A stretch of DNA of 34,554 nucleotides. It comes from Thermocrinis sp. Its GTDB lineage: Bacteria > Aquificota > Aquificia > Aquificales > Aquificaceae. Within the stretch, counting starts at the first letter, position 1. Each line of letters begins with the position of its first letter. Positions 9,548 to 14,485 of this stretch are shown piece after piece. Both the position numbers and the translations under genes were made by a program. The stretch covers positions 1-34,554 of the forward strand of contig JAPYWH010000012.1 in assembly GCA_028276475.1 (NCBI GenBank), read 5' to 3'. Below the pieces are notes generated by a model. That model made no database searches. It was not told the origin of the DNA and saw only the letters and a program-made list of their open reading frames with translations.

Positions 9548-10459
9548 TTATAAACCATAGATCTCTTTCAGTATTTCCTCTCCTCCTTCTCTTAATAACC
9601 TCTGGGCGAGCCTTTTGCCCACCTCCTCCGCTTCTTGCAAGCCACCCTCTTCATAACCCTCCAAGAACCTTTCGCCCTCCAAGTCCGAGATGAAACCCTT
9701 TATTTTTATACGATCCCCCTCTATCCAAGCGTAAGCCCCTATGGGCACCTGACAGCCTCCTTGCAATTCCCTTAAAAAAGCCCTCTCACACACAGCCCTG
9801 AGCCAGCTTTCCTGGTGATTGAGCACTTTTACAAAGTTAATAACCCTCTCATCCTCAGCCCTGGTCTCTATTGCCAAACTACCCTGTCCCACTGCAGGGA
9901 TAAAATCCTCCAAAACCTGGCTAACTTCACCAGAAAAGCCCATCCTCTTTACTCCCGCATAAGCTAAAACTATGGCATCATACAGCCCTTCCTTTAGCTT
10001 TCTCAGGCGTGTATCCACATTTCCCCTCAGGATTTCCACCCTTAGGTCCCTTCTTCTTCTCTTTATTTGCACCTGCCTGCGTAAGGATGAAGTGCCTACC
10101 ACCGCACCAGAGGGCAACTCCTCCAACTTTTTGCCATTTCCTGATATTAGCACATCGTATGGCTCCTCCCTTTCCGTTATGGCAGAGAGGGTTAGTCCTT
10201 CGGGTATTATCATGGGCACATCTTTTAGGGAATGCACCGCCAGGTCTATTTCACCCGCAAGGAGGGCATTCTCTATCTCCTTTACAAAGAGCCCCTTTCC
10301 GCCGATCTTTGCCAAGGGTGCGTCCAAGATTTTGTCCCCGGTGGTTGTAATGGGCACAAGCTCCACCTTGCAACCCAAAGCCTCTAACTTTTCTTTAACA
10401 AAGTTTGCTTGCCAAAGGGCTAATTTGCTCTTTCTGGTGCCAAGCCTAAGCAGGGTCAT
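9548..10459 (-). CDS. hemC: Porphobilinogen deaminase (hydroxymethylbilane synthase)
   Basis: This 303-residue cytosolic enzyme joins four porphobilinogens into hydroxymethylbilane in tetrapyrrole synthesis. It starts with [15 protein letters not shown] and has the catalytic Asp80 in HSLKDVP, the substrate-binding arginines in [17 protein letters not shown], and Cys236 in [13 protein letters not shown] as the dipyrromethane cofactor attachment site. All three domains are present at normal length. The ATG overlaps the stop of the preceding DUF190 gene as ATGA. No other heme gene is in the operon, so co-regulation with the fluoride-channel genes may be incidental. Confidence 0.96.
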
Positions 10460-10782
10460 GCCCTAATCACCCTAACCTTCTCCATGGTTATAAGCCCATC
10501 TTTAACCATCTGGGCTATCTCAGGTAGCACTTGGTCAATTTTCTCCTGGCAGTCTATGATTTCCACCACTATAGGAAGGTCCGAGGAAAGCTTGAAGGGA
10601 CTTGCCTTGTGTAGCACGGAAGACTTGCCATAACCCAATATGCCCCTGAAGACGGTGGCACCCGCTATGCCCCTATTCCTGCAAAATTCCACCAGATGCT
10701 TGTAAAGGGGCTTTCCTTCGTGCTTATCATCCTCTCCAAAAAATATGCGCACCAAAACCGCCTCTTCGCACCTCATAGCCAT
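10456..10782 (-). CDS. DUF190 family protein (PII-like), downstream copy
   Basis: This small 108-residue protein has the DUF190 pattern: [51 protein letters not shown], and a closing [10 protein letters not shown] strand. The family has a ferredoxin-like PII-related fold and is often coded beside crcB. Its molecular role is not established; a regulatory or accessory role to the fluoride channel is inferred. The start at 10782 overlaps the end of crcB by 10 bases; an alternative ATG two codons in (10776) fits equally well. It is clearly paralogous to the gene at 11132. Confidence 0.85.
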
Positions 10783-11147
10783 CTACCCAAATTGTAGCCC
10801 AAAAAGGTCAAAAATAAACCCACAAGGTTTGTGCCCATAAAGTAGGCAAAAAACTTTAAATACTCCCCGTTTACTATTAGGTTAAAACTCTCGTAAGAAA
10901 AGGTGGAAAAGGTGGTAAAACCACCCGCCAACCCCGTTATCAAAAAAGCCCTGAGTTCTACGGATATATCCAACTTTTCCACCAAGTAGGAGAAGAAAAA
11001 GCCAATAAAAAAGGCACCCGTTAAATTGACCATCAAGGTTCCCACAGGAAATTCTACACCGAACTTTTTTTGCAAAAACTTTGAAAGATAAAACCTCAAT
11101 AGGGAACCAATAGCCCCACCTATTGCTATGGCTAAGAAGATACCCAT
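10773..11147 (-). CDS. crcB: Fluoride ion channel CrcB/Fluc
   Basis: This 124-residue membrane protein has four hydrophobic helices. Fluc channels work as antiparallel dimers that let fluoride leave the cell. Signature segments are GGAIGSLLRFYLS, PVGTLMVNLTGAFFIGFF with the pore Asn, and the conserved GLAGGFTTFSTFSYE around the sodium site and phenylalanine box. One complete copy is present, as expected for homodimer formation. It is flanked on both sides by DUF190 genes and overlaps each (16 and 10 bases). No fluoride riboswitch is recognisable upstream. Confidence 0.93.
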   Translation of the reverse strand: MGIFLAIAIGGAIGSLLRFYLSKFLQKKFGVEFPVGTLMVNLTGAFFIGFFFSYLVEKLDISVELRAFLITGLAGGFTTFSTFSYESFNLIVNGEYLKFFAYFMGTNLVGLFLTFLGYNLGRWL

Positions 11148-11455
11148 ACGTGTGCCCTTTCAATGGTTATGAGCCCTTTTTTTACATACTTTGCGAGCTC
11201 CTCCAAAAGGCTATGGACCTTCTCTTCCCTTTCCACAAACTCCACCACCACAGGAAGGTTGTAAGATAGCACCTCAATGCCCTCGTAGTGATACTCGCCC
11301 GTGGTTCCGTAGCCCATTATTGCCTTCAAAACCGTTGCACCACCCACACCCTTGCTTTTTAAAAGCTTTAAAAGCTTAGAATATAACCTTTCTCCCTCAA
11401 GTTCATCATCCTCCCTCATAAAGATCCGCACCAAGAGATAGTTGCCCTCAACCAC
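11132..11455 (-). CDS. DUF190 family protein (PII-like), upstream copy
   Basis: This 107-residue DUF190 protein leads the operon: LLVRIFMREDDELEGERLYSKLLKLL, GGATVLKAIMGYG, LPVVVEFVE and KKGLITIERAHVW. It is a paralog of the copy at 10456 with the same motifs but clearly diverged. The start is a GTG at 11453-11455. There is no good Shine-Dalgarno, and only 25 bases separate it from the divergent coaE start. It overlaps crcB by 16 bases. Function is unknown; a paired or heteromeric regulator of CrcB is one possibility. Confidence 0.83.
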   Translation of the reverse strand: MVEGNYLLVRIFMREDDELEGERLYSKLLKLLKSKGVGGATVLKAIMGYGTTGEYHYEGIEVLSYNLPVVVEFVEREEKVHSLLEELAKYVKKGLITIERAHVWVSS

Positions 11456-11480: not shown

Positions 11481-12086
11481 ATGCTTAGAATAGCCCTAAC
11501 TGGCAACATAGGTTCTGGAAAATCCACCGTAGCGGAGTTTTTCAAGGAGTGCGGTTTTTATGTCTTTGATGCAGACCGTATAATAAAGGGATTTTATGAA
11601 GAGAGGGGAAAGGTGTACGAAGAGGTTCTTAAAGCCTTTGGGTATGAAATATTAGACCGAGGGGGAAACATAAACACAAAAAAGCTTGCGGACATTGTTT
11701 TTGCAGACAGAGAAAAGCTCTTGCTTTTGGAAAGGATCACCCACTCTGCCCTTTATGAGCGATTGGAGGAGGAGTTTAAAAAACTGCCCGAGCACGCCGT
11801 AGCAGTGGTGGAGGCGTCCTTGGTTTTGGAGAAAAAAACACAAGACAGGTACGACTTTGTGGTTTTGGTTTATGCACCCTATGAGATTTGCAAACAGAGG
11901 GTCCTTGCCAAAGGCATGTCCCTGGAGGACTTTGAAAGAAGATGGCAAAAGCAACTTCCACCTGAAGAGAAGCTAAAAAAAGCCCACTATGTGATAGACA
12001 ACAGCCAAAGCCTTGAAAGGACAAGGGAGAGGGTCTTTGGGTTGTGTAAAGTCTTTAGGAACCTTGTCCTTTTTCAGAGAGGGTGA
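11481..12086 (+). CDS. coaE: Dephospho-CoA kinase
   Basis: This 201-residue P-loop kinase phosphorylates the ribose 3'-OH of dephospho-CoA, the last step of coenzyme A synthesis. It has Walker A GNIGSGKST near the N-terminus, the acceptor-site FDADRI segment, a lid region with QRVLAKGMSLEDFERRWQKQ, and YVIDNS near the C-terminus. I chose the ATG at 11481, which gives the normal MLRIALTGN start; a TTG extension to 11442 would run into the divergent DUF190 gene. No Shine-Dalgarno is visible. The 3' end overlaps the convergent ttuA gene by 32 bases. Confidence 0.93.
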   Translation: MLRIALTGNIGSGKSTVAEFFKECGFYVFDADRIIKGFYEERGKVYEEVLKAFGYEILDRGGNINTKKLADIVFADREKLLLLERITHSALYERLEEEFKKLPEHAVAVVEASLVLEKKTQDRYDFVVLVYAPYEICKQRVLAKGMSLEDFERRWQKQLPPEEKLKKAHYVIDNSQSLERTRERVFGLCKVFRNLVLFQRG

Positions 12087-12969
12087 GCCTTTGCTTTAGC
12101 CTACAGACAGAGCATACATCCGCAGAAGTGGGCTCACCGCAGATGGAACATGGCTTTAGCTCAAGTTTTTCCTCCCGCCTGAGAAGGGGTTGAACCTTTC
12201 TCAAAAACTCTAAGTAGAACCTGAGCTTGGTGCCGGGGCTCTTTTCCTCTATCTGAGAGAGCAAAAGCTTATGCTCAATTGAAGAAGCATCCACCGAGTA
12301 GGGGCACTCTTCCTCCACAAAGTCTATGTTTGAAAGAAGGGCATACAGGGCACTTTCCTTCTCTGTGATAAAGCACAGGGGTTTTACCTTTTTCACAAAG
12401 CCATTGCCCTCCTTTAAAACTGGATACTGCCTTTGCAGGTAGCCTAAGTTCCAGGAAAGGACGTTTCCCATAAGGGTGGCGCTTTCATCGTCCAAGTTGT
12501 GCCCTGTGGCGATCACCGAAAAACCAAGCTCTTTGGCACTTTTGTTCATGTAATACCTTTTGAGATTTCCACACACAGAACAGGCAGGTCTTTTTTCCAT
12601 CTCCTTTAGGGTTGGTATATCTTCCACCAAATCCTTGAGCCTTATCACATGCAGGTTCCTTCCTAAGCCCTGGGCAAACTTCTTGGCTTTTTCCTCCGAT
12701 AGCTTGGAATACTCTCCTATGCCCAAGTTTATATAGAGCCCATCCGCCTGGTAGCCAAGCTTATGGAGGGCATGCCAAAGAGAAAGGCTGTCCTTCCCAC
12801 CAGATACCGCCACTAAAACCCTATCTTCCCTTGAAAACATCCTAAACTCTTTTATTGTCCTTTCCACCCTCCTTTCAAACCACTCAAGGTAATGCCCTTT
12901 GCACAGGGCAAGCCTATGGTGGGGCAAATAGACAACCGCCTTTTGGGAACACTTGGCACACCTTTTCAT
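12055..12969 (-). CDS. ttuA: tRNA 2-thiolation enzyme TtuA (tRNA-m5U54 2-sulfurtransferase)
   Basis: This 304-residue enzyme of the TtcA/TtuA group adenylates U54 and replaces its oxygen with sulfur, giving heat-stabilising s2T in tRNA. It has an N-terminal zinc finger (Cys4, Cys7, Cys23, His26), the PP-loop SGGKDS (56-61), Cys130 and Cys133 (CSVC) with Cys222 as probable [4Fe-4S] ligands, GHNLDDE, and a C-terminal four-Cys zinc finger (274, 277, 286, 289). The iron-sulfur cysteines fall at the numbering I recall for Thermus TtuA. The sulfur-carrier gene lies 12 bases upstream in the same direction, which supports TtuA over TtcA or TilS. Confidence 0.9.
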   Translation of the reverse strand: MKRCAKCSQKAVVYLPHHRLALCKGHYLEWFERRVERTIKEFRMFSREDRVLVAVSGGKDSLSLWHALHKLGYQADGLYINLGIGEYSKLSEEKAKKFAQGLGRNLHVIRLKDLVEDIPTLKEMEKRPACSVCGNLKRYYMNKSAKELGFSVIATGHNLDDESATLMGNVLSWNLGYLQRQYPVLKEGNGFVKKVKPLCFITEKESALYALLSNIDFVEEECPYSVDASSIEHKLLLSQIEEKSPGTKLRFYLEFLRKVQPLLRREEKLELKPCSICGEPTSADVCSVCRLKQRLTLSEKGQGS

Positions 12970-12981
12970 AAGTTTTTAATC

Positions 12982-13191
12982 TTAACCCTGCCCTCCCGAA
13001 ATAGCATTTATCACCCGCACTTGGTCTCCCTCCCTTATGTAAAAGTCCTCCTCCACCACCTCTCCATTGACCACCACAAAGGCATACTCCCTTGAGAGGT
13101 TCATAGCCTTTAAGAGGTCCTTTGCTTTTACTTTGTTTTCTTCAAACTCCAAATCTAATTCCTTTCCTCTGTATTGAACCCGCAGTTTCAT
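12982..13191 (-). CDS. ttuB: Ubiquitin-like sulfur carrier TtuB (MoaD/ThiS family)
   Basis: This 69-residue beta-grasp protein probably carries a C-terminal thiocarboxylate that TtuA uses as sulfur donor. Seen are MKLRVQYRGKELDLEF, a helix with KDLLKAMNLS, AFVVVNGEVV, REGDQVRVINAISGG and then two more residues, Gln-Gly, before TAA. Carriers of this type normally end exactly at Gly-Gly, so the extra tail is odd. The ATG at 13189-13191 is preferred because upstream codons to 13242 read into the dyad and look non-coding. It shares a 167-base intergenic region with the divergent sigma-54 operon. Confidence 0.85.
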   Translation of the reverse strand: MKLRVQYRGKELDLEFEENKVKAKDLLKAMNLSREYAFVVVNGEVVEEDFYIREGDQVRVINAISGGQG

Positions 13192-13358: not shown

Positions 13359-13700
13359 ATGGCAACGCTAAGCAAGCTCAAAGAGCTTATGTCCATACCC
13401 GGCGCTGTTGCAGCTGGGGAATTTGCAGATGATGGTAGGCTGATTGCCTACTACGGCGACATTGACGAGAAGTCTGCCGAGATCGCAGCCATGATGTGCG
13501 CCGCCAACAAGCTCATGGGCAACATGCAGGCAAAGGGCTGGAGTGCATACACTGGTGAAGGGGGCTTCTACCCTGTAGTTGGCTTTGCTGTAGCCGGTGG
13601 AAAATACGCCGCCTGCATAATGGGCAATGTGGGTGTTTTTGTGGAGCTTTCTAAGGCTGACTTTGACAAGGTCTTTGAAACCTTGTCCAAATACATCTAA
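13359..13700 (+). CDS. DUF2173 family protein, first tandem copy
   Basis: This 113-residue soluble protein belongs to the DUF2173 family, whose function is unknown. It contains GAVAAGEFADDGRLIAYYG, the highly conserved EIAAMMCAAN (Cys47) and YAACIMGNVGVFVEL (Cys86). The alpha/beta pattern of strands around a Met/Ala-rich helix recalls small roadblock-like domains, but that is only an impression. It is the first gene after a sigma-54 promoter and has a perfect AAGGAGGTG at 13346-13354, so strong conditional expression is expected. It is 15 bases ahead of a paralog. Confidence 0.88.
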   Translation: MATLSKLKELMSIPGAVAAGEFADDGRLIAYYGDIDEKSAEIAAMMCAANKLMGNMQAKGWSAYTGEGGFYPVVGFAVAGGKYAACIMGNVGVFVELSKADFDKVFETLSKYI

Positions 13701-13715
13701 AAGGAGGTGAGAACC

Positions 13716-14051
13716 ATGGCAGACTTGGACAAACTCATGGGTGTAAAGGGAGTTTGGGCTGCGGGAGAGTTTTCTCCCGATGGCAAGCTACTTGCCTACA
13801 AGGGCAACATATCTGAAGAGCACGCAGCGATGGCTGCGATGATGTGCGCCGCCAACACAATGATGGCAGAGATGCAAACTCAGGGCTACACTGCCTTCTC
13901 TGGTCAAGAATGGACACCTCTGATAGGCTGGGCTCTGACCGGTCCCAAGTATTCGGTTTGCGTGGTGGGCAATGTGGGCGTCTTTGTTAACAACGACGAA
14001 GTGTCCTTTAACGAAGTCTTTAAGGCTTTAAGGGAAGTGGCGGGTAAGTAA
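13716..14051 (+). CDS. DUF2173 family protein, second tandem copy
   Basis: This 111-residue paralog of the preceding gene shares the layout GVWAAGEFSPDGKLLAYKG, AAMMCAAN (Cys44) and YSVCVVGNVGVFV (Cys82). The ATG at 13716 follows AAGGAGGTG; the GTG at 13707 is part of that Shine-Dalgarno and is rejected. Both cysteines are retained in both copies, so they are probably functional (metal, redox or disulfide). The two proteins may form a heteromer. A terminator hairpin follows within 10 bases. Confidence 0.88.
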   Translation: MADLDKLMGVKGVWAAGEFSPDGKLLAYKGNISEEHAAMAAMMCAANTMMAEMQTQGYTAFSGQEWTPLIGWALTGPKYSVCVVGNVGVFVNNDEVSFNEVFKALREVAGK

Positions 14052-14059
14052 AACCATGC

Positions 14060-14082
14060 GGGGGCACGCCCGCCCCCTTTTT
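14060..14082 (+). terminator. Rho-independent terminator inside the sigma-54 operon
   Basis: GGGGGC (14060-14065), a six-base loop and GCCCCC (14072-14077) are followed by five T (14078-14082). It lies between the DUF2173 pair and the SCP2 gene, only 14 bases before the next ATG. It probably lets most transcripts stop after DUF2173 while some read through. Confidence 0.85.
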
Positions 14083-14095
14083 AAAGGAGGAGAAA

Positions 14096-14485
14096 ATGCA
14101 TAAGTTCCTTTCGGAAGATTGGATAAAGGCTTACAAAGAGAAGTGGAATAAAAATCAAAAGCTCAAAGAGGAGCTAAAGGACTTTTCCGCCAGCATAAAG
14201 TATTACATAGAGGGAAAAGAGGGAGACGCAGTCCATCTTATAGTGAAAAATGGGGAGGCAGTTGAAGCAGGAAGGGCGGACTCAATGGATTACGACTTTG
14301 AACTCTGGGCAAGCTTGGATAATTGGAAAAAGCTCGCCATGGGAGATATGGGACCAAAGGCTGCCATGCTAACCAAAAGGCTAAAGTTTAAGGGTTCCAT
14401 GATCACCGCCATGAAGTATATGTCCGCCCTTGAGGGCAGTTTAAAGATGATGGGCAACATTCCCACCGACTGGGACATAAAATAA
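14096..14485 (+). CDS. SCP2 sterol-carrier-like protein
   Basis: This 129-residue protein resembles the SCP2 sterol-transfer fold: a helical N-terminus, then IKYYIEGKEGDAVHLIVKNGEAVEAGR, DSMDYDFELWASLDNWKKLAMGDMGPKAAMLTKRLKFKGSMITAMKYM. That central run matches the family's DFxLxxSxxxWxxLxxGxxxPxxAxxxGxLKxxG layout. SCP2 proteins bind hydrophobic ligands such as acyl chains, and the ligand here is unknown. The ATG follows AAAGGAGG. It lies between the intra-operon terminator and the activator gene, so it is probably expressed by read-through. Confidence 0.82.
   Translation: MHKFLSEDWIKAYKEKWNKNQKLKEELKDFSASIKYYIEGKEGDAVHLIVKNGEAVEAGRADSMDYDFELWASLDNWKKLAMGDMGPKAAMLTKRLKFKGSMITAMKYMSALEGSLKMMGNIPTDWDIK

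Follow-up and report, generated by a model that had tools for sequence, protein, structure and literature searches.

The window analysed here, a stretch of 34,554 nucleotides from a Thermocrinis sp. genome, encodes a TtuB-like sulfur carrier which continues for two residues, Gln-Gly, beyond its Gly-Gly motif. We suggest, with a probability of roughly 0.78 and on the basis of sequence comparison, that translation yields an inactive TtuB precursor which a JAMM-type peptidase would trim to Gly-Gly before activation by the E1-like enzyme. Peptidase trimming had been one of two explanations offered in the first-pass annotation, and it now has indirect support: the genome encodes a JAMM peptidase, the extra residues (hereafter the cap) occur almost only in two carrier classes, and the carriers read from the two lineages in which no JAMM was found are uncapped.

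The ttuB-like gene and its neighbourhood

Table 1. Positions of the carrier gene, its terminal codons and the ttuA homologue in the window
Feature	Position	Strand	Remark
ttuB-like sulfur-carrier gene	12982..13191	-	ATG at 13191; 69 codons; product ends NAISGG-QG
Gly-Gly codons (GGA GGG)	12991..12996	-	no variation among the aligned sequences of the order
Cap, Gln-Gly codons (CAG GGT)	12985..12990	-	first cap-position codon of close relatives: TAG, TGG or CAG
ttuB stop codon (TAA)	12982..12984	-	in G003, a close relative with GG-stop, the same TAA lies two codons later
ttuA homologue (tRNA-5-methyluridine(54) 2-sulfurtransferase)	12055..12969	-	304 aa; start about 22 nt past the GG codons

At its 3′ end the gene reads ATT TCG GGA GGG CAG GGT TAA, that is I-S-G-G-Q-G-stop. 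The GGQG terminus described earlier is thus confirmed in the minus-strand frame, and a congener (G006) encodes the same GGQG. Since relatives share the frame of the cap, a sequencing error as its origin is ruled out.

Several lines of evidence place the product close to TtuB. The Pfam models ThiS (PF02597) and SAMP2 match above cut-off, and the NCBIfam models all stay below their own cut-offs. The AlphaFold2 model has a mean pLDDT of 91.4, with 66 over the last nine residues, and shows a beta-grasp fold near known TtuB: the TtuB chains 5ztb_E and 5gha_H are the Foldseek matches at ranks 3 and 4 (27% identity, E about 1e-3). The model also resembles Pyrococcus furiosus SAMP2 bound to JAMM1 (5lda), and this complex is the best PDB match by sequence as well (E = 5e-9). 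In the sequence search the protein matches SAMP2 but does not match Thermus thermophilus TtuB at E ≤ 0.1. The gene partner is as expected for TtuB, as a ttuA homologue follows directly downstream. Its product matches P. horikoshii TtuA (5mko, E = 1e-80) and TtuA 5gha (E = 1e-79) and scores 314 bits on the NCBIfam TtuA equivalog model, below the cut-off of 450. A single ThiF-family match in the genome (contig C67) provides the E1-like activating enzyme. The terminus departs from TtuB, as GGQG is encoded instead of Gly-Gly and trimming would be needed to expose the latter. The protein is a putative thiocarboxylate-forming sulfur donor to U54 of tRNA.

Further along the window a CrcB-family gene lies between two same-strand DUF190 (P-II-like) genes (10456-11455). 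Divergent from ttuB, a tandem pair of DUF2173 genes precedes an SCP2-like gene (13359-14485).

Distribution of the cap among relatives and carrier classes

We searched 61 genomes of the genus, family and order and found TtuB in 48 of them; a phylum-wide set of 136 genomes was searched as well. When the C-termini are aligned across the order, as had been proposed, the Gly-Gly is invariant and the tail varies in length and sequence: 12 TtuB have no residue after GG, 12 have one, 19 have two, three have three and two have four. Thus, 36 of the 48 carry a cap and the other 12 stop at Gly-Gly. The motif in front of the tail is NAISGG, once SAISGG, and the tails include QG, QV, WG, KF, LL, VL, YI, T, V, A and TQGA.

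The cap varies even within the genus. TtuB ends in GGQG in G006, GGQV in G005, GGWG in G001 and GG-stop in G003, and in the two more distant congeners in GG-stop (G002) and GGKNL (G004). Among the five closest genus genomes, three have CAG directly after the GG codons, one has TGG and one TAG; the TAA two codons further on is shared by all five. As the TAG of the GG-stop form is one base away from CAG or TGG, the cap can be gained or lost by a single base change. The TtuB of the uncapped congener, whose stop is one base from a cap codon, is 94% identical; judged from these sequences, the cap is therefore dispensable in this genus. The first-pass annotation had further supposed that a precursor form adds a control step to tRNA thiolation. 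The ease of gain and loss argues against the cap as an essential control step. By parsimony the cap state changed at least nine times, a minimum that is all we quote since the TtuB proteins are short and the tree is rough.

Although variable, the tails are always short. All 73 non-zero tails among 102 loci (duplicates included) have at most four residues; by comparison, the next in-frame stop lies that close in 36% of cases, a figure which is indicative only owing to duplicates and shared ancestry. Both collections together contain 76 distinct TtuB sequences, 51 of them capped. In none of these 51 is the residue directly after GG a G, P, D or E, as against 16% of the downstream codons.

Why a tail exists at all could have its reason in gene packing: the GGAGG of the Gly-Gly codons would be the Shine-Dalgarno sequence of ttuA, the cap would be translated spacer and the ttuB stop would overlap the ttuA start. 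Ten loci from three genera (g7, g15, g16) fit, as their two to three cap codons end in TTGA, where TTG is the ttuA start as extrapolated from the alignment and GGAGG lies about 6-9 nt upstream. The wide spacing in the window, however, leaves no overlap between ttuB and the ATG of ttuA. Moreover, caps are about as frequent without ttuA closely downstream (17/23) as with it (19/25), which contradicts translational coupling as the general and sole cause of caps. We consider this explanation rather improbable as an account of the cap; it can be compatible with trimming. L006, L008, L012, L014, L019 and L020 are individual loci in which the extrapolated TTG overlaps the ttuB stop and has GGAGG at the spacing of a Shine-Dalgarno site.

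The trimming reading also draws on the other sulfur carriers of the same genomes. We assigned four classes by eye and read their C-termini. Caps are present in 36/48 TtuB and 48/53 CysO/SAMP1-like carriers, and in only 1/48 MoaD and 0/36 ThiS; the sole MoaD cap (G019) is one residue long. The window genome follows this pattern: TtuB is capped with QG and the CysO-like carrier with F, and the glycines at the ends of MoaD and ThiS are bare. The CysO-like protein clears the cut-off of the SAMP1 model (61.3 vs 60 bits) and matches PDB 3dwg (E = 1e-19). That entry, listed as culture filtrate antigen, is presumably CysO of Mycobacterium tuberculosis; this relative of the second capped carrier ends in a bare GG in the solved chain. 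One CysO-like cap in the set starts with Glu. The cap is not needed in either class, since 12/48 TtuB and 5/53 CysO-like carriers are uncapped though JAMM is present. Of 47 genomes none has lost the cap from both TtuB and the CysO-like carrier, but such a mutual exclusion is not significant (P = 0.21).

Three records deserve mention. In G002 (L303:2715-3265) the CysO-like and TtuB genes are convergent and their ends overlap by 4 bases. The ttuB frame of S. yellowstonense SS-5 is broken in the draft contig (L155), and a record titled Acidobacteria (L112) bears a ttuB resembling those of this order.

The JAMM peptidase and the lineages without it

A search for a JAMM-type peptidase gene, suggested along with the trimming idea, was successful in the same genome. 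The Prok-JAB protein of 138 aa (92.7 bits) is encoded on contig C51, by eye between asd and hisIE, and thus is not clustered with ttuB (contig C6). It carries the E, HxH, S, D motif, and ExCG...HxHx7SxxD is kept in all 30 JAMM loci read. The best NCBIfam match is desampylase, below cut-off (77.5 vs 130 bits). Among PDB entries 2kcq is best (E = 6e-24) and 5lda third (E = 7e-8), so that 5lda is the one solved complex which matches both TtuB and JAMM.

JAMM scores above the Pfam cut-off in 47 of the 48 TtuB genomes. The remaining genome (G024) gave no match in the Prok-JAB search, yet its TtuB and its CysO-like carrier are both capped. Its congeners G008, G017 and G030 do have JAMM, in G017 split across two contig ends, and an assembly gap is likely in G024. 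Genus g10 has retained JAMM in the absence of both TtuB and a close TtuA, and the four genomes read all encode a capped CysO-like carrier. This fits a second JAMM substrate.

The phylum-wide set provides the contrast. In families f4 and f5 (24 genomes) Prok-JAB finds nothing in nine genomes and gives weak matches of about 25 bits or less in the other 15, two of which barely reach the cut-off. We inspected five weak loci, four from f5 and one from the window genome. Pfam identifies the f5 match of G122 and that of the window genome as RadC, and we judged G123, G125 and G132 by eye to be RadC-like. Within the reach of the phylum search and of the four weak f5 matches inspected, no JAMM other than the RadC type was found in f5. 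TtuB homologues occur in 19 of the 22 genomes of f5, with 20 matches (L315-L334), and all 20 end uncapped in ATS[KR]G-stop, the penultimate Gly itself being replaced. Strong TtuA matches are present in 20 of the 22 genomes, closely downstream at 4 of the 20 TtuB loci. Genus g12 has no JAMM above cut-off and no TtuB match; TtuA homologues are present and its MoaD ends in GG-stop in all six cases read. We note that the contrast involves two clades, each of which is in effect one observation, and that the tiny Fisher P values overstate independence.

Another protease or a general carboxypeptidase might instead trim the short tail to Gly-Gly, with JAMM acting on conjugates only. Exopeptidase nibbling needs short tails, and those of TtuB indeed have at most four residues; in addition, the aberrant TtuB conjugates of a T. 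thermophilus JAMM mutant speak for a role as deconjugase (PMC3980101, partial text). But such a protease predicts neither the uncapped carriers in two JAMM-less lineages nor the nearly cap-free MoaD and ThiS in the same genomes, and in our view this explanation is unlikely.

Still less probable is that TtuB no longer serves TtuA and that free sulfide or another carrier does so, which would render the cap irrelevant. TtuA incorporated sulfide in vitro and may serve organisms without TtuB (PMC6225789, partial text), some TtuA organisms lack TtuB (PMC7138817, partial text), and genus g12 combines TtuA homologues with the lack of any TtuB match. However, NAISGG is strongly conserved, ttuB closely precedes ttuA in 25/48 genomes, and genus g10 is devoid of both TtuB and close TtuA. 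Finally, the other explanation of the first-pass annotation, activation of the terminal Gly of Gln-Gly without trimming, suits the Gly end of the window TtuB but is rejected for the family, because 48 of the 51 distinct capped TtuB do not end in Gly (3/51 do) and the GG is invariant; we give it practically no credence.

Proposed maturation and relation to known systems

We propose that trimming by JAMM proceeds in the following steps, in which we infer the cleavage, the pairing of peptidase and substrate and the order of events. Expression of ttuB would yield the capped precursor. A zinc peptidase of the JAMM type, whose gene lies on another contig, would cut after Gly-Gly and release Gln-Gly. 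This would leave Gly-Gly open to adenylation by the single E1-like enzyme found in the genome. A sulfur donor would turn the adenylated end into a thiocarboxylate, and finally TtuA would hand the sulfur to U54 of tRNA. The same JAMM probably trims the CysO/SAMP1-like carrier with its Phe cap, and MoaD and ThiS would be made ready to use.

By analogy with T. thermophilus a cap should block two events at the TtuB C-terminus. There the C-terminus is coordinated directly by the Fe-S cluster of TtuA (PMC7138817, partial text) and TtuC adenylates the C-terminal Gly; deletion of the JAMM gene led to aberrant TtuB conjugates and to about 50% less thiouridine (PMC3980101, partial text). That system agrees with ours in fold, TtuA partner, one E1 and a genomic JAMM, but its TtuB is adenylated at the C-terminal Gly and the available part of the paper mentions no cap. 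Rpn11 of Caldiarchaeum subterraneum is no longer cleaved when Glu follows GG or when Val replaces the penultimate Gly, and the variant Cys79Gly, with Gly after GG, is cleaved faster (PMC6043591, partial text). As TtuB caps never begin with Gly, the match to Rpn11 is partial.

One may go further and speculate that the cap acts as a gate. One E1 faces four carriers; MoaD and ThiS would always be open, and TtuB and the CysO/SAMP1-like carrier usable only after JAMM action. JAMM activity would then set the sulfur flow to tRNA thermostabilisation and to the CysO-like route, and loss of JAMM would let a carrier lose cap and diglycine, as in the Ser-Lys-Gly family of f5. This extension is doubtful and we offer it tentatively. 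If trimming itself is confirmed, JAMM maturation of capped carriers extends to the tRNA 2-thiolation of thermophilic bacteria, and the capped, uncapped and peptidase-less relatives form a comparative system in which to study how one bacterial JAMM processes ubiquitin-like precursors. A bare GG-stop would also be an unsafe mark for recognising such sulfur carriers.

The principle of capped carriers with a JAMM partner is already known, QbsE and HcyS/HcyD being partner names in such systems. Sulfur carriers with a capped C-terminus typically need a protease, for which QbsD is cited as a case, and PtmS2 (MV) and PtmS3 (C) are capped alongside two exposed carriers; thioplatensimycin was no longer produced once ptmS1, the gene for the JAMM, had been deleted (PMC6006322, partial text). 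As far as these partial sources go, the likeness to QbsD (thioquinolobactin synthesis) and to PtmS2/PtmS3 with PtmS1 comprises the diglycine with one or two extra residues, the genomic JAMM peptidase and the cap-free carriers in the same genome. Unlike the carriers for an antibiotic (PtmS) and a siderophore (QbsD), the carrier here is one of tRNA thiolation, and unlike ptmS1 and ptmS2, which are clustered, the peptidase gene is distant from the carrier gene. In P. furiosus SAMP2/JAMM1 (5lda) homologues of both partners are solved, and CsJAMM of C. subterraneum cleaves SAMP precursors (PMC6043591, partial text); both systems are archaeal, unlike ours, and 2kcq, not 5lda, holds the solved JAMM nearest in sequence. 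In the literature searched, with most subscription papers outside the search and the sources available in part, we found no description of a capped TtuB. Thus, what is new appears to be the extension to TtuB, together with the class- and peptidase-linked cap pattern in this phylum.

JAMM peptidases are also linked to fused carriers. In 2006 it was proposed that JAB domains release the C-terminus of such fusions (PMC1779556, partial text), and DRJAMM of Deinococcus radiodurans cleaves a MoaD-MoaE fusion (PMC8832034, partial text). DRJAMM thereby resembles the peptidase suggested here, as a bacterial JAMM which exposes the C-terminal Gly of a carrier, but its substrate is a fusion and not a capped TtuB. 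In our collection two loci, L298 (G033) and L299 (G029), encode a MoaD/ThiS-like domain ending in ALAGG fused to a PAPS-reductase domain in an open reading frame of about 400 aa (Pfam was run on the G033 protein). The internal diglycine of this fusion could be a JAMM cleavage site.
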